From NCBI RefSeq assembly GCF_010747475.1, contig NZ_VSLZ01000005.1:186001-250000 (forward strand): DNA of 64,000 nucleotides. Direction: 5' to 3'. The first letter of the stretch is position 1. Each line of letters opens with the position of its first letter. The position numbers and the translations under genes are program-made. Below, in pieces: positions 35,964 through 46,676 of this stretch. A model generated the notes under the pieces. It ran no database searches and was not told the DNA's origin. It worked only from the letters and a program-made list of their open reading frames with translations. The stretch is from Halorussus sp. MSC15.2 (GTDB lineage: Archaea; Halobacteriota; Halobacteria; Halobacteriales; Haladaptataceae).

Positions 35964-36773
35964 TCAGACGACATGTTCCGTGTCGTAGGACCCCAACTTC
36001 CGGACCCAGCCTTTCTCCGCAATCTCCTCGATGTCCGCGATGGCCGCCTGCGCGCGGTCCTCGTAGAGTCCGGCCTCGAAGTCGATGTGGAACACGTAAT
36101 CGCCGAGTCGCTCGCCGCTCGGCCGCGATTCGACCCGCGTCAGGTTGATGTCGCGGTCGGCGAACGGTTCGAGGAGTTCGAGCAGGAGTCCGGGGTAGTT
36201 GGCGTTCGGGTAGACCACCAGCGAGGACTTGCCGCCCGCGTCCGACCGCTCGTGGGTGGGCGCGATGACGAGGAATCGCGTGGCGTTCGAAGTCCGGTCC
36301 TGAATCCCTTCGGCGATAACTCGGAGGTCGTCGCCCTCGTGAGCGTTGGCCGGGTGACCGATACCGGCTACGTCCGGGTTCTCGCGGGCGTGTTCGACGC
36401 CGCGCGCGGTACTGGCGACGGCTTCGAGTTCGACGTCGGGGTACTCGGAGTCGAGGTAGCTACGGCACTGCGCGAGCGCCTGAGAGTGGCTGGCGACGAC
36501 CGAGAAGTCCTCGCCCCGAGCGAGCAACGCGTGCCGGATTGGAGTGACGATTTCCTGCACGGCGGCGACCTCTCGGTCGGTCAGCGCGTCGAGCGTCTCG
36601 GTGACGCTCCCCTCGATGCTGTTCTCGATGGGGACGACGCCGCGGTCGAACTCGCCGTCGGCCACCGCCTCCACGATGGCGGTGACGGACTCGCGGAAGT
36701 CCACGTCGTCGGTGACTGCGCTGGCCGCCCGATGGGAGTAGGTGCCCTCTGGACCGAGCGTGACTGCTTGCAT
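35964..36773 (-). CDS. pheA: Prephenate dehydratase
   Basis: 269 residues from the ATG at 36773 (MQAVTLGPEGTYSH). It converts prephenate to phenylpyruvate in phenylalanine synthesis. The PDT domain has VVPIENSIEGSVTETLDAL near residue 60 and the catalytic Thr-rich region RTSNATRFLVIAP near residue 167. A C-terminal ACT domain (SSLVVYPNANYPGLLLELL, then the signature ESRPSGERLGDYVFHIDFE) gives Phe feedback. The first 13 codons plus about 45 bp upstream recur, diverged, at 42201-42290 fused to the end of lpdA. Confidence 0.93.
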   Translation of the reverse strand: MQAVTLGPEGTYSHRAASAVTDDVDFRESVTAIVEAVADGEFDRGVVPIENSIEGSVTETLDALTDREVAAVQEIVTPIRHALLARGEDFSVVASHSQALAQCRSYLDSEYPDVELEAVASTARGVEHARENPDVAGIGHPANAHEGDDLRVIAEGIQDRTSNATRFLVIAPTHERSDAGGKSSLVVYPNANYPGLLLELLEPFADRDINLTRVESRPSGERLGDYVFHIDFEAGLYEDRAQAAIADIEEIAEKGWVRKLGSYDTEHVV

Positions 36774-37162: not shown

Positions 37163-37319
37163 GTTTTGTTGTACGGTATCAATTGGCATAGTTCCTTGGT
37201 AGGAGTGGGGCCACCGCTTTTTGACTTCGGTTATACTACCGACTCTGCGGCGAAATTCTGTCTGTCAGGCATAATTATTAGATAGTAAATAAATTGTCAG
37301 TGTGCGAGAAAAACAGCCC

Positions 37320-38243
37320 ATGGGTATAATTGAAACCACTTCGCTGACAAAACGCTATGGCGATGTAACCGCCATCGAGGACCTCCATCTTACGGTGAGG
37401 AAAGGCGAAGCGTTCGGATTCCTTGGTCCAAACGGCGCAGGCAAATCCACCACTATCAACATCCTTCTCGGATTTCTCGAGCCGTCGAGCGGGAGTGCGT
37501 GCGTGTTGGGCCACGACGTGCAGACCGAATCGAAAGCATTGCGTCGGCGTATCGGAGTAGTTCCGGAGGGCACGAGCGTCTACGAACAACTGACGGGACG
37601 AAAGCACGTCGAGTTAGCGACCCGGATGAAGAACTGCGACGACGACCCCGAGGACCGCCTGCGCTACGTCGGACTCGACCCCGAGGACTGGGACCGGAGA
37701 GCGGGGGACTACTCGAAAGGGATGCGCCAGCGACTCTCACTGGCGATGGGGCTGGTGGGAAATCCCGACCTCCTAATTCTGGACGAACCGACGTCAGGTC
37801 TCGACCCGAACGGGATGCAGGACGTGCGTGATATTATACGCGAGCAAACAGACGCTGGGCGGACAGTGTTTATGTCGAGTCATCTCCTCGCAGAAGTCGA
37901 GTCTGTCTGCAAGCGGGTCGGCATCATGAACGATGGCGAGTTGGTAACTGTAGACGAGGTAGACCGACTCCGTGAGACGGCAGTCGGCGACGCGGACGTG
38001 AAACTCAGCGTCGAAGCGGTTCCCGACGAACTCGACTTGACCGCAATAGAAGGAGTGACCGACGTGACGATAGCGGATTCGACGATTCGCGTGGCCTGCT
38101 CGAAGCGCGACACGAAAATGGCCGTCATCAGACACGTAGATCAGATAGCGACCGTAACCGACGTCGTTGCGGAGGACATCTCGCTCGAAGCCGTCTTCGA
38201 GACTTACACCGAGGACAGACGGATAGTGGAGGAATCGGCATGA
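37320..38243 (+). CDS. ABC transporter ATP-binding protein, island pair 1
   Basis: 307 residues from the ATG at 37320; a GTG at 37302 is also in frame. Walker A GPNGAGKST, signature YSKGMRQRLSLAMGL, Walker B LLILDEPTSGLDPNG and H-loop SSHLLAEVESVCKRVG mark an ABC-2/NatA-DrrA-type exporter ATPase, followed by the C-terminal domain usual in this type. It overlaps its permease by 4 nt. The preceding 60 bp are AT-rich with TATA-like TTATTAGATAG. It is closely related to the ATPase at 39293-40222. The cargo is unknown; the island's cysteine-rich peptides are candidates. Confidence 0.9.
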   Translation: MGIIETTSLTKRYGDVTAIEDLHLTVRKGEAFGFLGPNGAGKSTTINILLGFLEPSSGSACVLGHDVQTESKALRRRIGVVPEGTSVYEQLTGRKHVELATRMKNCDDDPEDRLRYVGLDPEDWDRRAGDYSKGMRQRLSLAMGLVGNPDLLILDEPTSGLDPNGMQDVRDIIREQTDAGRTVFMSSHLLAEVESVCKRVGIMNDGELVTVDEVDRLRETAVGDADVKLSVEAVPDELDLTAIEGVTDVTIADSTIRVACSKRDTKMAVIRHVDQIATVTDVVAEDISLEAVFETYTEDRRIVEESA

Positions 38244-39073
38244 GTATCAGTGACGTCGTCCGAACGGACCTGAGCGTCCTCAGGCGTTCGAAGCTCTCAT
38301 GGGCGGTCCTCACTGTTCTCCTGTTCTCTACTGCGGGGGCGTTCTATCGGTCGATAAATCGAACACCGGTCGGGACGGCCGAGAAGGGCATCACCGCAAT
38401 CGCGTACGGTGCGATGATTGTGATTCCAATCACGGCCCTCGTTGCTTCTGCGTTCGCTATCGCTGCGGAGCGCGAGAACGGAACGATACGGTTCCTCCTC
38501 GGCTTCCCGAACGAACGAGTCGAGGTCGTTCTCGGAAAAGTTCTGTCTCGGGCTATCCTCGTCAACGGCGGACTCGCGCTCGGATTTCTCGCTGTCGCAC
38601 TATTAGCGGTCGTCGGGGCTGACAGACCCCGACTTATCACGGTCGGCCAGTTCGCACTCTTGACGATGTTGTTCGCCACCTCCTACGTCGGTCTCGCGGT
38701 GGGAATCTCCGCCGGAGTAACGACCCAGATACGCGCAATCGGGGGGACTATAGTGGCGTACCTCTTTTGGAGCATCTTCTGGCTTCCCGGTTTCCCCTAC
38801 TCGGTCGCGGTGTACGTAGAGAATCTTTTAGCAAAGATAGTCGGACACGAACTCGGTCGGACGACCGTCGTACACATCGAGGTTCTCAATCCACCGACGG
38901 CCTACATGCAGACGGTACAGGTTTTGGGACCGTCGTTCGAGGAGTTCTCGAGGGGGTCATCGATGGCGAGCGCACTCGTCGAGCCGAGCGTCGCCATCGG
39001 GTCGCTCGTGGCGTGGACCGTCCTGCCGCTCGCGTTCGGCTACTGGCGGTTCAGAGCCGCCGAGATAAACTAA
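38240..39073 (+). CDS. ABC-2-type permease, island pair 1
   Basis: 277 residues with six hydrophobic segments (about 21-36, 54-75, 106-129, 138-160, 172-188 and 253-270). Signature region AIAAERENGTIRFLLGFPNERVEVVLGK is the ABC-2 amphipathic segment. It overlaps the ATPase gene by 4 nt and should form an exporter with it. The paralogue at 40219-41040 has the same layout (AKEREQGNIRFLLSFPNDRR). A copy of the lpdA 3' end begins 15 nt after its stop. Confidence 0.88.
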   Translation: MSISDVVRTDLSVLRRSKLSWAVLTVLLFSTAGAFYRSINRTPVGTAEKGITAIAYGAMIVIPITALVASAFAIAAERENGTIRFLLGFPNERVEVVLGKVLSRAILVNGGLALGFLAVALLAVVGADRPRLITVGQFALLTMLFATSYVGLAVGISAGVTTQIRAIGGTIVAYLFWSIFWLPGFPYSVAVYVENLLAKIVGHELGRTTVVHIEVLNPPTAYMQTVQVLGPSFEEFSRGSSMASALVEPSVAIGSLVAWTVLPLAFGYWRFRAAEIN

Positions 39074-39087
39074 ATAGGAATTTTCGG

Positions 39088-39123
39088 TTATCGATTCAGC
39101 GTGTGAATCGCGTGCCCGAGTGC
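39088..39123 (-). pseudogene. Fragment of the lpdA 3' end, 11 codons plus stop
   Basis: On the minus strand this reads ALGHAIHTLNR followed by TAA, exactly the C-terminus of the intact LpdA at 44654. A 26-bp core (39095-39120) is identical to 41965-41990 and 44661-44686. The flanking differences (GCA/GCG, AAT/AAC, CGA/CGC) are synonymous. Sequence beyond 39124 is unrelated to lpdA. This is the third lpdA end in the island. Confidence 0.7.
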
Positions 39124-39292: not shown

Positions 39293-40222
39293 ATGGCTGC
39301 TATCGAGACTTCGGGCTTGACGAAACACTACGGCGATATCGTCGCCGTCGATGATTTAGATTTGGTCGTTGAAGAAGGTGAAGCATTTGGATTTCTTGGT
39401 CCGAACGGGGCCGGTAAGTCAACGACTATTGATTTGCTTCTGGGTTTTCTGACACCGACTCGTGGGAACGCGGAGATACTAGGCCACGACGTAGAATCAG
39501 AATCAAAGACAGTTCGAGAGCAACTCGGTGTCCTTCCCGAAGGAGCCAGCACCTACAGTAATCTAACAGGAATAGAACACGTGGATTTAGCAATTGAGAT
39601 GAAAGGCGGTGCTGACGAGACTGAAGAGTTGTTGGAGTACGTCGGACTATCACCGGAAGATTGGGACCGTCCCGTCGGTGGCTACTCGAAAGGGATGCGC
39701 CAACGTCTCGCACTCGGGATGGCACTGGTCGGCGACCCCGAGATGCTACTTCTCGACGAACCATCCAGTGGACTGGACCCTTCCGGGATACGTGATATTC
39801 GGAATATCATCGAGGATCAGGTCGACGCGGGACGAACTGTTTTTTTCTCCAGCCACATTCTTTCGGAAGTAGAGTCTGTCTGTGAACGGGTTGGAATTAT
39901 GCGGGACGGGACGCTCGTCACTGTAGACGAGGTCGAAAAACTTCGTGCGGCAACTGTCGGCGATGCGGAAATCAAACTCCGTGTTGAGACTGTTCCTAAC
40001 CGCCTCAATCTCTCGAATATCGATAACGTGAGTGACGTGAGGACGAAGAACGATACGATTCGTGCGACCTGTTCGACGCCGTCCGCGAAAATCAGCGTGA
40101 TTAATCAGGTGGACGAAGAAGTGGAAATTACAGATGTCGTAGCTGAGGATACTTCTCTCGAAACAGTGTTCAATACGTACGTGCAGAACGGCCGGTCGGA
40201 AGCAACGGGGGACTCGCCATGA
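39293..40222 (+). CDS. ABC transporter ATP-binding protein, island pair 2
   Basis: 309 residues. Walker A GPNGAGKST, signature YSKGMRQRLALGMAL, Walker B MLLLDEPSSGLDPSG and H-loop SSHILSEVESVCERVG. It is similar throughout to the ATPase at 37320-38243, including the C-terminal domain (TVDEVEKLRAATVGDAEIKL vs TVDEVDRLRETAVGDADVKL). Codons are more AT-rich than in pair 1. A TATA-like CTTAAGATAATAAT precedes the ATG by about 20-33 nt. It overlaps its permease by 4 nt. Confidence 0.9.
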   Translation: MAAIETSGLTKHYGDIVAVDDLDLVVEEGEAFGFLGPNGAGKSTTIDLLLGFLTPTRGNAEILGHDVESESKTVREQLGVLPEGASTYSNLTGIEHVDLAIEMKGGADETEELLEYVGLSPEDWDRPVGGYSKGMRQRLALGMALVGDPEMLLLDEPSSGLDPSGIRDIRNIIEDQVDAGRTVFFSSHILSEVESVCERVGIMRDGTLVTVDEVEKLRAATVGDAEIKLRVETVPNRLNLSNIDNVSDVRTKNDTIRATCSTPSAKISVINQVDEEVEITDVVAEDTSLETVFNTYVQNGRSEATGDSP

Positions 40223-41040
40223 GCGTCAGGTTAATCCTCCGGCAAGACCTGCTGGCGCTACGTCGAACGAAACTAGTGTGGGCAGTACTACTCTTCTGTC
40301 CGTTACTCGTATTTGGAGGATTTTATGCAGTGGTTAGTAACCAAACAGGTACTAATCAAACGGTTCTTCTCGGCCTTCTCGGAATAGTTTTCCCGATACT
40401 GGTGTTCGTCCCGATGCTCTCGTTGGTGGTCTCGGCCTTCTCGATAGCGAAAGAACGGGAACAGGGAAACATCCGGTTTTTACTTTCGTTTCCCAACGAC
40501 CGACGGGAGGTCGTCCTCGGGAAATTTTGTTCTCGAAGTTTGCTGACCGCCGGCGGTTTACTGGTAGGGTTCGTTCTGGCTACGCTACTTTCCGTATTCC
40601 TTACTGGTACTCTGAATATCGGGATGTTCCTGACCTTCTCGGTGTTGACGCTTCTCCTTATGACGTCCTACGTTAGTATCGCTACCGGTATTTCCGCCAC
40701 TGTGACTACCCAGTCGCGTGCGATAGTCGCATCGATAGGAGCGTACCTCGTCTGGAACGTCTTCTGGATTCCCGCTGTCCCGAACTCGATTCCGTCACTT
40801 CTAGAGCAACATTTCGGTCTTTCCAATTCTTCACTGATACTCTTAAGGATGGGTAGCCCATCGAACGCGTACCTTCAGTCGATACAGTACGTCTCTCCGA
40901 GAACTGAGAAGTTAGTAGAAACTATGTCGGCGGGGTCTGAATTGGGCTCTCCGTTGGTCGCGGTAAGTATGCTCATCGTCTGGTCCGTGCTTCCACTCGT
41001 ACTGGGATATTGGCAGTTCCAGAAGGCAGACATATCCTAA
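40219..41040 (+). CDS. ABC-2-type permease, island pair 2
   Basis: 273 residues with six hydrophobic segments, with the conserved AKEREQGNIRFLLSFPNDRR segment after segment 2. It is the same architecture as the permease at 38240-39073. It overlaps its ATPase gene by 4 nt and is followed 178 nt later by the 16-Cys precursor on the same strand, which may be its export substrate or the target of its immunity function (inference). Confidence 0.88.
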   Translation: MSVRLILRQDLLALRRTKLVWAVLLFCPLLVFGGFYAVVSNQTGTNQTVLLGLLGIVFPILVFVPMLSLVVSAFSIAKEREQGNIRFLLSFPNDRREVVLGKFCSRSLLTAGGLLVGFVLATLLSVFLTGTLNIGMFLTFSVLTLLLMTSYVSIATGISATVTTQSRAIVASIGAYLVWNVFWIPAVPNSIPSLLEQHFGLSNSSLILLRMGSPSNAYLQSIQYVSPRTEKLVETMSAGSELGSPLVAVSMLIVWSVLPLVLGYWQFQKADIS

Positions 41041-41183: not shown

Positions 41184-41218
41184 CAGGTTTACAAATATCC
41201 AAGAAAAACCGAAGTGGA

Positions 41219-41848
41219 TTGGATCGACGCCAGATGCTAAAAGAATCTGCCGCCGGCGCGCTCGTCGCGTTTGGGGGTACGACTGCCGCTAGTGCCAAAC
41301 AGGACGTTGGACTCACGAAAACCGAAGAGGAGGCCGTCATCGAGGAGTACAAAGACGCGGCAATGGTTCGAGAAGCAGTGCACGAGCAAACGGACCTACT
41401 GAAGGAACTCGAAGCAGATGGTGTTCTCGACGAACAGACCATCGACGATCTCGAGGAACTGAGCGAACCCTCCGACAACGTCGGGGAGCACGTGACCGCC
41501 TACCGACACGGCTACCGGCACACGCCACGAATCAAGATTTTCCGTCGCGTAGACGCCGGATTCCTGTCGCTCTCCGTCTTCCCGGAGGAGGACACCGCTC
41601 ACGCTACGCTGAACCCCGTCGAAAATGGTGAGCCGCTCGGTAAGGACCACCTCGTGAAATACGGAAGTATGCCGGAACCAGACCCGGACGGATGTGTCGA
41701 TCCGGGGCACTGTCAGGATTGTTCCGATTGTTCCGAAGAGTGTTGTGCGCGGGACCCTCAGGGCGACTGTACCCAGTGGTGTACTCAGTGTGACTGCGAT
41801 TGTGTCTGCTGTGACTGTGGTGTCCTCTGTAGTAGCTACTGCGCATAA
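41219..41848 (+). CDS. Tat-exported precursor with a 16-cysteine C-terminal tail
   Basis: 209 residues. TTG start at 41219 is chosen because it gives the twin-arginine signal MDRRQMLKESAAGALVAFGG; no ATG upstream keeps the frame. A signal cleavage site near AASA/KQ is likely. Residues 30-155 are acidic and helical/beta with no cysteine. From residue 159 the tail holds 16 Cys in 51 residues, including EECC, CDCDCVCCDC and CSSYC. The layout (Tat signal, propeptide, Cys-rich end) is that of halocin C8-type preproproteins, but the Cys spacing is denser, so metal binding is the alternative. It stands alone downstream of ABC pair 2. Confidence 0.75.
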   Translation: MDRRQMLKESAAGALVAFGGTTAASAKQDVGLTKTEEEAVIEEYKDAAMVREAVHEQTDLLKELEADGVLDEQTIDDLEELSEPSDNVGEHVTAYRHGYRHTPRIKIFRRVDAGFLSLSVFPEEDTAHATLNPVENGEPLGKDHLVKYGSMPEPDPDGCVDPGHCQDCSDCSEECCARDPQGDCTQWCTQCDCDCVCCDCGVLCSSYCA

Positions 41849-41957
41849 CTAAGAGCAAAGACGGGTCGAGAACTGCGCTACGGAGTAGCCTCGTAGCGTC
41901 TACCGGCCGACCCTTCGGTCGGTTTTACTAGTCACAGAGTGGATACGTAGAGTCGCT

Positions 41958-42243
41958 CTAACGGTTCAGCGTGTGAATCGCGTGCCCGAGCGCGTTTTCG
42001 GCGGCCTCCATCACGGCCTCCGAGAGCGTCGGGTGGGTGTGAATCGTCGCGGCCACATCCTCCAGCGTCGCGCCCATCTCGATAGCCAGACCGAGTTCGG
42101 CAATCAGTTCGAAGGCCTCCGGTCCCACAATCTGCGCGCCGAGCAGGAAGCCGCTGGGTTCGTCCGCGACGATGCGGACGAAGCCGTCGGCGTGGCCGGT
42201 GGAGTAGGTCCCCTCCGGACCGAGCGTGACTGCTTCTATACGT
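41958..42243 (-). pseudogene. Chimeric remnant: first 13 codons of pheA fused in frame to the last 80 codons of lpdA
   Basis: On the minus strand, 42239-42201 encodes IEAVTLGPEGTYS, the PheA N-terminus with its ATG changed to ATA. At 42200 it passes in frame to TGHADGFVRIVADEPSGF... and ends ALGHAIHTLNR with TAG at 41958-41960. The lpdA part (41961-42200) matches 44657-44896 with about 18 differences in 240 nt, all synonymous except V-to-I and S-to-F. The pheA part matches 36735-36773 at 35 of 39 positions and continues into the pheA upstream DNA to about 42288. With no start codon it is probably not translated. Confidence 0.8.
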
Positions 42244-42387
42244 TTTCTGTTTCGCGGAGGGGTGAAAAGAGCAGTGGCTGTGACAGAACTTTAGCAAGGG
42301 ATAAAGTGATTTGAACCACGCTGCCGGAATTCTCCTGTACGAATAGAAATAGTAGTATGTTCTACACGCACCCATCTAATAGTTAGG

Positions 42388-42420: not shown

Positions 42421-43266
42421 ATGGAAGACGAAAATCAGTCAAAGAGAGAAGAGTCAAAGAACAAAGCGTCAATCACCCGACGAGGAGTCCTTGGGGTATT
42501 AGGTGCAACCGCTGGTGCAACCGTTAGCTCAGGATTTACTAAACCGGTTTCTGCAGACTCTGTAGATATAACCGATCTCCGGGGTTCAGTAAGAACGCTG
42601 TTTGAAGAAGTGGGAGAACCAGCAATCGTTAACCAAAATGTGAATGTTTATCATGGTGATTTTACCCTGAAGGTTATTCGATTCGAAACCAAAGTCGGTG
42701 CCATCACTCACCGAGAGGTTCTTAATTCGAAAGTTGAAAAGTTCGATCGGGGGGACACGTCCACAGGATTCGAACTAAAGGACCTTACTGAAGAGATTCA
42801 GCGAAAGCTCCCCACTCGGTTCAATAGCGTCCCCATAGGAGTTGAACTCCACATGAAGGTGGAAAATAATGGAATGAGTCTCAGCACTACCGTAACTGAG
42901 AAAGAACAGGAACAACTGTCAAATTTTGTCGATACTGGTGAATTTATTGCACGACACACTGATGGCTCCTACTTCATCAGGACTGCGGACGGCAATGTGT
43001 TCAAAGTTTCTAGTGAGACAGATCGGCCAAACATAAGACAACCTTCGGTCGAAGAAGTCGCAAGCGAGCAAATTAACGCAGATGCATGCTTCGATTGTGG
43101 TACTAATGCTCCCGAATGTGCTAGTAATTGTTTCAATGCTTGTGCCTTTGTCATTGGAAATGGCGATCCCCTGCATTGCGGTGAATGTATTGCCCAACAC
43201 TGCGTGGGTTTAGACGTAAAAGCCTGCGCAAAATGCATCGCTAGCCTGCCAGAATCTATTCGATAA
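42421..43266 (+). CDS. Halocin C8-like Tat-exported preproprotein
   Basis: 281 residues. The Tat signal is SITRRGVLGVLGATAGATVS (17-36). Residues 47-220 form a soluble pro-domain (FEEVGEPAIVNQNVNVYHGD, VELHMKVENNGMSLSTTVTE) without Cys. The last 59 residues carry ten cysteines at 223, 226, 233, 237, 241, 253, 256, 261, 269 and 272. Halocin C8, a haloarchaeal antimicrobial peptide with ten cysteines, is cut from the C-terminus of a similar preproprotein whose N-terminal part gives immunity (known for that system). Antimicrobial function here is inferred. Codons are notably AT-rich, unlike core genes. Its 3' end overlaps the convergent LolA-like gene by 11 nt. Confidence 0.75.
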   Translation: MEDENQSKREESKNKASITRRGVLGVLGATAGATVSSGFTKPVSADSVDITDLRGSVRTLFEEVGEPAIVNQNVNVYHGDFTLKVIRFETKVGAITHREVLNSKVEKFDRGDTSTGFELKDLTEEIQRKLPTRFNSVPIGVELHMKVENNGMSLSTTVTEKEQEQLSNFVDTGEFIARHTDGSYFIRTADGNVFKVSSETDRPNIRQPSVEEVASEQINADACFDCGTNAPECASNCFNACAFVIGNGDPLHCGECIAQHCVGLDVKACAKCIASLPESIR

Positions 43267-44002
43267 ACGGTTTTCTACGTACCTCTTTTGCGTTTTCGGG
43301 AGGAGTAAACTTGAAGAGAGAGCAATCAATCTCGATGTTAAATTCAACCTCCTCAAACGTTTTCATGAGGAAGTACACCCCGTCCGGAACATCCCCGAGT
43401 GAATCTGTCTGCAACAGTGGCATCTCTTGGATGTTGGCCCGTGCCTCCTCCTTGATGGGGAACCAGTATTCGTCGTCTATCCACAGAGTTATGTACTCGT
43501 ATCCTCGGTAGAGGGAATCCGCGTCCGCTGTCGGTCGAAACGACAGGACGTGTGTCTCTCGACCTGCGACGGTCTCCCTCCCATCGTACGTCACGTCGAA
43601 GTTCGATTTGGGAGAGGACCCAATTAACGTCGCGTCCGTGTTGGGATTAGGTCGACCCTCGGCCGGGTCGAAATCGAGACTGTGATACTTTTTCGCTTCA
43701 CGGTCATACAGTATCACTCCATCTCGATTCTGTATCATGAGATCTACGCCCTCGAATTCAGGCGTCGGGTCGTGCGTGACGCCAAGGTCGAAATCGAACT
43801 CGTCGACGGTTTCCACGGACAGTTGTTCGTTGCGAGTTCTGTTCGGAAGATCCTCCCACAGTTCAAGTCGGACCGTTCTCAGGCCGCCACCGTATTTTTC
43901 GGTTTTTCGTTTCGTCCCGTGAATGGTGTCCGGCAAATTGTCCGTGGCCTGGAGTTCGTCGAGGATTTCCTCGACTGAAGGCGTATCCTCATTCGTGGTC
44001 AT
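43256..44002 (-). CDS. LolA/LppX-like protein without signal peptide
   Basis: 248 residues from the ATG at 44002; a GTG at 44011 is the alternative. It has the beta-rich LolA-like pattern: RTVRLELWEDLPNRTRNEQL, DLMIQNRDGVILYDREAKKY, ETVAGRETHVLSFRP, YITLWIDDEYWFPIKEEA and a final EIDCSLFKFTPPENAKEVRR. Most haloarchaeal members are exported lipoproteins; this one starts with acidic TTNEDTPSVEEILDELQATD and has no signal, so it should stay in the cytosol. It is convergent with the halocin-like gene and overlaps it, suggesting linked function (immunity or maturation), which is inference. TATA-like TTTATATA at 44039-44046 on the minus strand. Confidence 0.7.
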   Translation of the reverse strand: MTTNEDTPSVEEILDELQATDNLPDTIHGTKRKTEKYGGGLRTVRLELWEDLPNRTRNEQLSVETVDEFDFDLGVTHDPTPEFEGVDLMIQNRDGVILYDREAKKYHSLDFDPAEGRPNPNTDATLIGSSPKSNFDVTYDGRETVAGRETHVLSFRPTADADSLYRGYEYITLWIDDEYWFPIKEEARANIQEMPLLQTDSLGDVPDGVYFLMKTFEEVEFNIEIDCSLFKFTPPENAKEVRRKPFIE

Positions 44003-44085
44003 GGCTTCCACATCGTCCTACAGTTAAGTAGATACACATATATAAAACGCGGTCGAGATGTGTCGGGGCTACCGCTATCGGTTCA

Positions 44086-44653: not shown

Positions 44654-46078
44654 TCAGCGGTTCAGCGTGTGAATCGCGTGCCCGAGCGCGTTCTCGGCGG
44701 CCTCCATCACGGCCTCCGAGAGCGTCGGGTGGGTGTGAATCGTCGCCGCGACGTCCTCCAGCGTCGCGCCCATCTCAATGGCGAGTCCGAGTTCCGCGAC
44801 GAGTTCGGAGGCCTCCGGTCCCACAATCTGCGCGCCGAGCAGGAAACCACTGGGTTCGTCCGCGACGATGCGGACGAAGCCGTCGGCGTGGCCCGTCGTG
44901 AGCGCGCGGCCCGACGCGTTGAACGGGAACTTGCCGACGGTGGGTTCGAAGCCCTCCTCCTCGGCCTCCGCTTCGGTCATGCCGACCGTGCCGATTTCGG
45001 GGTCGGTGAACACCGCGGCGGGGACCGCCTGATAGTCCAGCGCCGAGGGTTCGCCCGCGACGACCTCCGCGGCGACCTGCCCCTCCTTGCTGGCCACGTG
45101 CGCGAGCATCGGCTCGCCGGACACGTCACCGATGGCGTGGATGTGCTCGACGTTCGTCCGCGCACGGTCGTCGGTCGGGATGAAACCGTTCTCGTCGGTC
45201 TCGACGCCCGCGTTGTCGAGTTCGAGCGTGTCGGTGACGGGTTCGCGGCCGACCGCGACCAGCACCTTCTCCGCGCCGAACTCCGAGACCTCGCCGTCCT
45301 CGTCCTCGGTCCGGACGGTGATGCCGTCGCCCGACTCCTCCCACCCGCTGGCGGCCTCGCCGAAGTGGAAGTCGATGCCCAGTTCCTCCGCCTTCTTCTT
45401 GACGGGGCGCGCGAGGTCGTCCTCGTAGCCCGGAAGGACCGAGTCGAGCATCTCGACTATCGTCACGTCGGTACCCAACTTGGCGAAGACGCCCGCGAGT
45501 TCCATGCCGATGTAGCCCGCGCCGACGATGACGAGGCTCTCGGGCACCTCCTCCAGTGCGAGCGCCTGCCGGGAGTCGAGTACGGGGTCGTCGCCGAAGT
45601 CGAAGCCGGGCACTTCGATGGGGCGACTTCCAGTCGAAACGATGGCGTGTTCGAACTTGACCGTCTCGGAACCCTGCCCGCCGCCGCTGTGGACGACGCG
45701 GGCCTTGTTCTCGTCGGCGAACTCCGCGCGGCCCTCCATCAGTTCGACGCCGTTGGCCTTGGCGAGTTTCTCGACGCCGCCCGTGAGTTGGTCCACGACG
45801 CCGTCCTTCCAGCCGACCATCTCGCTCATCTCCACCTCGGGGTCGGCGTAGATGCCCATTTCCTCGGCGTGGCCTGCCTCGTGGGCGAGGTCCGACGCCG
45901 TAATCATCGCCTTCGAGGGGATGCAACCGTAGTTGAGGCAGGTCCCGCCGTAGGCGTCCTTCTCCACGAGGGTCACGTCGAGGTCCAACTGGCCCGCGCG
46001 AATCGCGGCGACGTAGCCGCCCGGTCCCGCGCCGATTACCAACACGTCCGTTCCCGTCGAGATGTCTCCGACGACCAT
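44654..46078 (-). CDS. lpdA: Dihydrolipoamide dehydrogenase (E3)
   Basis: 474 residues from the ATG at 46078 (MVVGDISTGTDVLVIGAGPG). FAD enzyme that reoxidises dihydrolipoyl groups of E2 with NAD+. The redox disulfide is GGTCLNYGCIPSK, the FAD site GAGPGGYVAA, the NAD site IVGAGYIGMELAGVFAKLG, FAD-ribityl HAIGDVSGEPMLAH, and the C-terminal dimer interface HTHPTLSEAVMEAA with the active-site His. Its last codons recur at 39088 and 41958. It is in the same direction as the E1/E2 genes but 3.4 kb downstream of E2. Confidence 0.96.
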   Translation of the reverse strand: MVVGDISTGTDVLVIGAGPGGYVAAIRAGQLDLDVTLVEKDAYGGTCLNYGCIPSKAMITASDLAHEAGHAEEMGIYADPEVEMSEMVGWKDGVVDQLTGGVEKLAKANGVELMEGRAEFADENKARVVHSGGGQGSETVKFEHAIVSTGSRPIEVPGFDFGDDPVLDSRQALALEEVPESLVIVGAGYIGMELAGVFAKLGTDVTIVEMLDSVLPGYEDDLARPVKKKAEELGIDFHFGEAASGWEESGDGITVRTEDEDGEVSEFGAEKVLVAVGREPVTDTLELDNAGVETDENGFIPTDDRARTNVEHIHAIGDVSGEPMLAHVASKEGQVAAEVVAGEPSALDYQAVPAAVFTDPEIGTVGMTEAEAEEEGFEPTVGKFPFNASGRALTTGHADGFVRIVADEPSGFLLGAQIVGPEASELVAELGLAIEMGATLEDVAATIHTHPTLSEAVMEAAENALGHAIHTLNR

Positions 46079-46148
46079 ATGTTCGGTAAATCGGGCTTGG
46101 TGGTGAAAAATCAGGTGGATTTTGCGGCGAGATTGGATTGGTAACGTT

Positions 46149-46676
46149 TCACGCGGGGTCGTCGGGGAGGGCGTCGGCGACGCTTTCGACCGGCGCGTAG
46201 TAGCCGCGCTGGTCGCGCCAGACGTCGAGCCACTCGTCCGCGGTTTCGACGGACAGTTCGTTTCTGACGACACCGTTAACGAGCAAACCGATAGAGCCCG
46301 TTTTCGAGACGCCGAGTTCGTCTGCGAGCCGGCGAGCATCCATGTCGTCGGAGACGAACGTCCCGTCTACGAGTTGAGCCGTCACGAGGACTTCAGTCTC
46401 TCCTCGGTCAAGTCGCTGAAGCTCTTCGGAGAACTCGTGGTGGTCGAGAATACCACGTCCAGGATGAAGGAGGTCTATTTTGTCGCATTGGACGGCAGCG
46501 AGGGCTGAACCGAGAAATGGATAACCCTCGTCGACGCCGCGCTGGAGTTCCTGCTCAACCGCCGCTGCCGTTGCTAATCCGGAGAACGTGTCGGTGAGCC
46601 ATGATATAGCGTCGGAACTAGCGAAGTTACTGAGCACCGTCGCGTCGAGGACGAGCGGCTTCCGCTTCTCTCTCAT
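46149..46676 (-). CDS. PIN-domain toxin-like protein partnered with UPF0175
   Basis: 175 residues. LVLDATVLSNFASSDAISWL supplies the first acidic residue of a PIN nuclease (D11), ELQRGVDEGYP the Glu, and LDRGETEVLVTA plus FVSDDMDARRLADELGV the remaining acidic residues, with GSIGLLVNGV after them. This is the DUF3368-like PIN form that pairs with UPF0175 proteins. The expected role is a ribonuclease toxin. It overlaps the upstream antitoxin gene by 4 nt. Confidence 0.8.
   Translation of the reverse strand: MREKRKPLVLDATVLSNFASSDAISWLTDTFSGLATAAAVEQELQRGVDEGYPFLGSALAAVQCDKIDLLHPGRGILDHHEFSEELQRLDRGETEVLVTAQLVDGTFVSDDMDARRLADELGVSKTGSIGLLVNGVVRNELSVETADEWLDVWRDQRGYYAPVESVADALPDDPA

Follow-up and report, generated by a model that had tools for sequence, protein, structure and literature searches.

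The gene at positions 41,219 to 41,848 of the window (the whole 64,000-nucleotide stretch of Halorussus sp. MSC15.2 DNA analysed here) probably encodes a halocin-like antagonistic pre-pro-peptide that is exported by the Tat route, is locked by disulfides in its C-terminal tail and belongs to a producer protected by a pump; we put the probability of this reading at roughly 0.6. As judged from the relatives compared below, the interpretation of the tails as disulfide-bonded peptides is strongly supported for the family as a whole, and an antagonist role is moderately supported. The features discussed are collected in Table 1.

Table 1. Features at and around the Cys-tail gene (window positions)
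Feature	Position	Strand	Basis
pheA, one flank of the insertion site	35964..36773	-	ORF list, flank comparison
Second ABC ATPase without adjoining precursor; shares 61% identity with the DrrA-type ATPase	37302..38243	+	Domain and own-genome search
Second ABC-2 permease	38240..39073	+	Pfam/NCBIfam matches
Scar of 32 nt, copied from the lpd 3′ end	39092..39123	.	Sequence comparison
DrrA-type ABC ATPase, same cassette as the precursor	39293..40222	+	Pfam/NCBIfam matches
ABC-2 permease (PF12679; weak MutG match)	40219..41040	+	Pfam/NCBIfam matches
ATA codon where relatives have an ATG start; probable lost start	41195..41197	+	Comparison with L057
Cys-tail precursor	41219..41848	+	209 aa, TTG start, TAA stop (ORF list; relatives)
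Twin-arginine codons (RRQMLK), Tat-like signal	41225..41230	+	More than 90% of 49 aligned members have RR
Leader domain, conserved (roughly residues 28-152)	41300..41674	+	Alignments A1, A3 and A5
Probable mature peptide: Cys-rich tail with 16 Cys (residues 159-209)	41693..41845	+	Tail more conserved than leader in comparison with L159
Terminator-like hairpin, then a T run, downstream of the precursor	41902..41919	+	Consensus match only
Chimeric scar: lpd 3′ copy (41962-42200, 93%) and pheA 5′ copy (42201-42287, 75%)	41962..42287	.	Sequence comparison
P0004, separate Tat precursor, 10-Cys C-terminus, next cassette	42421..43266	+	Leader unrelated to that of the family
Partner of P0004, LolA-like by a subthreshold match	43256..44011	-	Same site in L230, L238 and L241
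lpd, other flank of the insertion site	44654..46339	-	ORF list, flank comparison

As the original prediction had claimed, 16 cysteines lie within the last 51 residues of the precursor, which has none elsewhere. The spacings that the prediction named (EECC, CDCDCVCCDC and CSSYC) are all found in a tail that is dense in CxC and CC pairs and ends in YCA. At the background Cys frequency of 0.74%, taken from 1,201 neighbouring non-family genes, the chance of at least 16 cysteines in 51 residues is 4e-22. The twin arginines are residues 3 and 4, and they do require a non-ATG start, as had also been proposed, since the first in-frame ATG (41234) comes after them. The precursor belongs to no Pfam or NCBIfam family; it gave only weak matches below the cut-offs, some of them to Tat-signal models. 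An AlphaFold model of the window protein from the single sequence had a mean pLDDT of 38.6 and was left out of fold searches.

A search with this one protein in its own genome detected two paralogues (E 1.2e-9 and 4.2e-7), and a leader-only profile built from the three was positive in 19 of 28 genomes sampled from the taxonomic family. With 49 rows, a second such profile matched seven times in the window genome, which thus has at least seven paralogues. Across the order, 197 of the 392 genomes sampled were positive at E <=1e-5, many of these being weak (E 1e-5 to 1e-8) and perhaps matches to the Tat signal, so that loci were fetched only for the stronger ones. The first search supplied 53 loci and the second 60, which make 114 with the window. 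These loci contain 124 full-leader members from eight haloarchaeal families (f1, f3-f9), kept from 132 profile matches because they reach model position 135 with E <1e-8; 8 of the 57 first matches were excluded from alignments A2 and A3 for uncertain starts or odd tails. The members share one layout, with an RR signal (twin arginines in >90% of the 49 members aligned), then a leader of some 120-150 aa with a VxPE...YA end and a C-terminal tail mostly of 6-22 Cys. Across subfamilies the tails have nothing in common in sequence except cysteine, and the Cys spacing varies widely. The window precursor itself shows the leader match in A3 and A5 followed by the Cys-rich tail, its own protein being in the seed. 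Its closest relatives, matched at E <1e-100, are two genes in genome G250 and a tandem pair in G002; with the window gene they are the five closest members.

Scans of genome contigs with the window protein alone and with A5 yielded zero relatives, as did tblastn of plasmids with the window protein, L064 and L071; the same plasmid search with L052 matched two Halorussus plasmids. The leader profile gave nothing convincing against the PDB (best E 0.014, mostly signal-region matches). No established role was found for the homologous family, and no description of it was found in the literature searched, although Makarova et al. 2019, who reportedly listed archaeal peptide-toxin candidates, may include parts of it. 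Several variants were seen along the way. One paralogue (L050, 5926-6555, minus strand; L056, 6007-6606, plus strand) has a 10-Cys tail of 23 residues that is identical in a second species; from reading the neighbouring ORFs, it presumably lies between dnaJ and dnaK (seen in L003). A 99-codon frame in L100 (7955-8254, plus strand) has RR and an 8-Cys C-terminus without the leader domain and may be a short precursor, and in L084 (5750-6541, minus strand) the Cys-rich tail is out of frame with the leader, probably a frameshifted member.

The number of cysteines bears most directly on the chemistry of the tails. It is even in 118 of the 123 Cys-bearing tails and, with one member per 35%-identity cluster, even in 60 and odd in 3 (nominal p 5e-15, a guide only, as are all parity p values here, the sequences being related). 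When cysteines are counted over the entire mature part, 116 members are even and 7 odd; in the control, non-family genes of the same loci with at least 6 Cys, 56 are even and 57 odd. Related pairs differ by 0, 2, 4 or 6 cysteines and never by an odd number. Counts of 6, 10, 14 and 18 are as frequent as multiples of four (44 clusters with 2-mod-4 and 37 with 0-mod-4 counts among 85 clusters at 40% identity), which argues against a number set by repeated four-Cys metal sites as in a metallothionein. The five odd tails are those of L086 (11), L172 (7), the second ORF of L098 (5), L200 (3) and the first ORF of L089 (1); the members with few cysteines include L177 (2) and L190 (4). Because the counts are even and 2-mod-4 is as common as 0-mod-4, pairing into disulfides is favoured over metal binding. 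Of the two options first offered for the tail, a disulfide-bonded secreted peptide and an exported metal-binding tail, the former gains support from the RR signal, Cys parity and the conservation of tails between orthologues, and the latter is disfavoured.

A comparison of 48 pairs of relatives whose leaders share at least 45% identity indicates that orthologous tails are as conserved as the leaders or more so. The window precursor and L159 share 49% identity in the leader and 76% in the tail, and the corresponding values with L153 are 53% and 67%. Tandem paralogues often carry differing tails on similar leaders, as in the L057 pair (leader 61%, tail 36% identity), the L189 pair and also L201/L089. 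Since orthologues retain their tails and tandem paralogues often differ, these patterns suggest that selection acts on the tail as the product and that leaders exchange their tails. Directly 5′ of the first tail cysteine, the motif [VIMLF][STED][TVIPASL]Q occurs in 28 of the 119 members with at least 5 tail Cys, about 2.5 being expected from shuffles or from elsewhere in the leader, for a pattern that was picked after inspection of the alignment. This junction motif may be a processing site. It is absent from the window tail, and the relative L159 has VEPQ at that position.

The known system that comes closest is halocin C8, a peptide with 10 Cys. The window precursor resembles it in having similar length, a Tat signal, a long N-terminal part and a Cys-rich C-terminal peptide, all at the level of sequence, and differs in its shorter tail with 16 Cys and CxC and CC pairs. 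Sequences are known for few archaeal antimicrobial peptides. The excerpted source calls halocin C8 the best known one, and its Tat-exported 283-aa precursor ProC8 gives a 76-aa C-terminal peptide and HalI (PMC11509114). The window precursor did not match the halocin C8 domain model (TIGR04449 halocin_C8_dom) at E up to 1. In its genome this model detected only C4:191504 and, weakly, C2:371423, and no similarity was found between the family leader and that of the TIGR04449 gene of this genome; in the halocin C8 family the immunity protein HalI corresponds to the N-terminal part. In this TIGR04449 relative (L103, 1495-2148, minus strand) the tail begins after SPQNC, which resembles the junction motif. 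The genome also encodes a large RR protein whose end is weakly C8-like (L121, 4138-6228, plus strand).

Extracellular activation has also been described in haloarchaea: according to excerpts of one study, the protease HlyR4 activates the HalH4 precursor to a C-terminal fragment outside the cell, and HapP releases its N-terminus (PMC12893001). The likeness is that of a secreted precursor converted by an extracellular serine protease into an active fragment, a comparison made by description only; the excerpted text does not present halocin H4/HlyR4 and HapP as Cys-tail peptides (PMC12893001). Archalan class II lanthipeptides of Halorussus salinus are likewise Cys-containing ribosomal peptides, from the same genus, but that study, as excerpted, sought precursors of <100 aa beside lanM, whereas the window precursor has 209 aa and a Tat signal (PMC10105419). 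A lanthipeptide was rejected as an explanation: there is no lanM or LanC-like gene nearby, and PF05147 (LanC-like) occurs in the window genome only on other contigs, at C3:567985 and C6:144948.

Beside the precursor stands an ATPase with an ABC-2 permease, an arrangement like that of the LanFEG/MutG immunity transporters and DrrAB next to a peptide gene. Unlike LanFEG/MutG, the window pump scores below all NCBIfam cut-offs (drrA subfamily E about 1e-70; permease against the lantibiotic-immunity MutG E 1.9e-6) and has no lanthionine machinery nearby. A search for such tails paired with ABC-2 exporters had been proposed; the pairing holds for the window gene and both G250 relatives and fails for the family at large. 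In the window, the ATPase/permease pair lies upstream in the same island; in both G250 genes (L153 and L159), an ABC ATPase follows 15-16 bp downstream and then a permease-sized ORF, Pfam confirming both ATPases and the L153 permease. The tandem pair in G002 has no pump within 6 kb, so that a pump shares the operon or island with the precursor in three of the five closest members. Elsewhere, a pump is 82-125 bp away in L051 and L058 and 1.5 kb away in L053. A general linkage was rejected: a close pump within 3 kb is found at 8 of the 114 loci (seven by gene calls, plus L053), about 2 being expected from 10 close ATPases per 4.4 Mb. A further 17 loci, taken around ATPases and halocin C8 matches (L105-L121), are all absent from the 114 full-member loci. 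Because the precursor bears a Tat signal and needs no pump for its export, self-protection is more likely than export as the role of the pump.

The gene belongs to an island between pheA and lpd, which we take, from reading them, to be prephenate dehydratase-like and dihydrolipoyl dehydrogenase-like genes. Among 17 other Halorussus genomes, 15 have the two 0.1-2.4 kb apart, and for L237 and L243 the 11 kb fetched contained no pheA. The distance in the window is 7.9 kb, and GC content drops from about 0.65 to 0.50-0.55. Because the scars consist of lpd 3′ and pheA 5′ fragments, the island can be read as a series of cassettes added successively by recombination at the flanks: a pump, a pump with the Cys-tail gene, and P0004 with its LolA-like gene. 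The P0004 leader was rejected as a family homologue, its match covering mainly the signal region. The P0004/LolA pair occupies this site in G011 as well (L238); in G020 (L230) LolA is 90% identical and P0004 is reduced to its C-terminal ~44 aa, and in G015 (L241) there are two LolA copies, with P0004 absent. Retention of the LolA-like gene in these last two genomes, where the precursor is no longer intact, would suit an immunity gene.

Taken as a pathway, the preferred reading would proceed as follows. The Tat-type signal would direct export of the precursor, whose leader of ~120 aa may hold it inactive or export-competent. An extracellular protease, perhaps of the halolysin type as for HalH4, would then free the ~50-residue tail; cleavage near residue 155, as anticipated in the original prediction, is plausible. 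The 16 cysteines would form eight disulfides, giving a very stable, acidic peptide. Like halocin C8, this peptide would most likely target related haloarchaea, and the producer would be protected by the ABC-2 pump or pumps nearby.

Two other partners recur beside family members. A secreted protein, HExxH-like in L154, degenerate in L063 and with a weak match to Hvo_1808, lies at a median of 13 bp from members in nine loci (L063, L064, L066, L154, L157, L168, L183, L194 and L210) and is a candidate processing enzyme or target. A prenyl-synthase-like protein is present in 11 copies in 10 of the 392 genomes, and seven copies adjoin family members (L160, L161, L164, L169, L175, L182 and L187; alignment A4), L161 having been recognised only through the partner search. 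It has no Pfam match; its profile matches nonaprenyl diphosphate synthase in the PDB (E 1.1e-6), and its alignment has DDxxD, an invariant Gln before a degenerate second motif and an invariant Asp in that region. Among the same 119 members as above, 8 of 9 tails beside this gene and 3 of 110 other tails end in Trp (Fisher p 2e-9). A DDxxD enzyme with invariant Gln beside Trp-ending tails recalls ComQ/ComX and PalQ, although these precursors are Tat-exported and predicted to be disulfide-rich. According to an excerpted source, all characterised trans-IDS-like transferases act on Trp and have in common a Gln ahead of the second Asp motif; PalQ requires a terminal Trp (PMC13290415). It is thus possible that this subset comprises archaeal Trp-prenylated peptides. 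The window gene is outside the subset: its genome has no match to A4 at E up to 1e-15, and its tail lacks a terminal Trp. Near the same enzyme gene, L218 (G248:C2, 632-1375, minus strand) has a different Tat protein that ends in NNSWI, and no Cys-tail precursor was seen in the short flanks of three further enzyme copies (L219-L221).

The start of the window copy deserves separate attention. The N-terminus of L057:6664-7293 (M-S-R-Q-N-N-N-G-L-S-R-R) aligns with I-S-K-K-N-R-S-G-L-D-R-R in the window, this first L057 copy starting with ATG TCC, in place of which ATA TCC stands at 41195 in the window. In the other L057 copy (G002) a stop follows the ATG immediately (ATG TAA), and L153 and L159 have an in-frame ATG upstream of RR. 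Because ATA occupies the position of the relatives' ATG, the TTG at 41219, the best canonical start at present, is probably a second-best one adopted after loss of the ancestral ATG. This loss makes expression of the window gene uncertain, and the producing strain may now express it poorly.

Other explanations fit parts of these data. The tails could be secreted signals, that is, pheromones in the form of strain- or species-specific sets of stable peptides, some prenylated like ComX; the ComQ/PalQ-like enzyme with its Trp-ending tails and the several paralogues per genome agree with this, but no receptor or two-component partner is prominent among the recurrent neighbours listed and the window genome lacks the enzyme, and we consider it unlikely. 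Disulfide-rich peptides are often protease inhibitors, and the closeness of the HExxH-like protein would suit disulfide-held tails that are exported inhibitors, binders or surface decoration and not antagonists; at the window, where that partner is absent and the ABC-2 pump fits self-protection better, such a role appears quite unlikely. The lost ATG and the chimeric scars would both be expected if the window gene were a silent, decaying remnant of cassette turnover, the reading of the family being unaffected. With the frame, the 16 cysteines and the leader all intact and conserved at 51-57% identity with relatives, we regard decay as improbable. The dense CxC and CC pairs of the window tail would be at home in an exported metallothionein-like metal-binding tail, which the cysteine counts, the widely differing spacings and the unusual nature of an exported metallothionein render scarcely credible.

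The halocin-like antagonist therefore remains our preferred reading of the window gene, and the find extends beyond this single gene to the whole family, in which export, tail exchange and probable oxidation are seen again and again in eight haloarchaeal families. More tentatively, and at somewhat less than even odds, the members may constitute a conotoxin-like superfamily of haloarchaea, with one Tat leader, exchanged disulfide-locked tails of 6-22 Cys, several members per genome and cassettes carrying class-specific partners (pump, HExxH-like or ComQ/PalQ-like). The 124 precursors found by the leader profile, with their parity rule, form a candidate list for synthesis and assay. If the reading of the prenyltransferase subset is true, a prenyl mass is predicted on the terminal Trp, and these would be the first archaeal tryptophan-prenylated, disulfide-rich secreted peptides.
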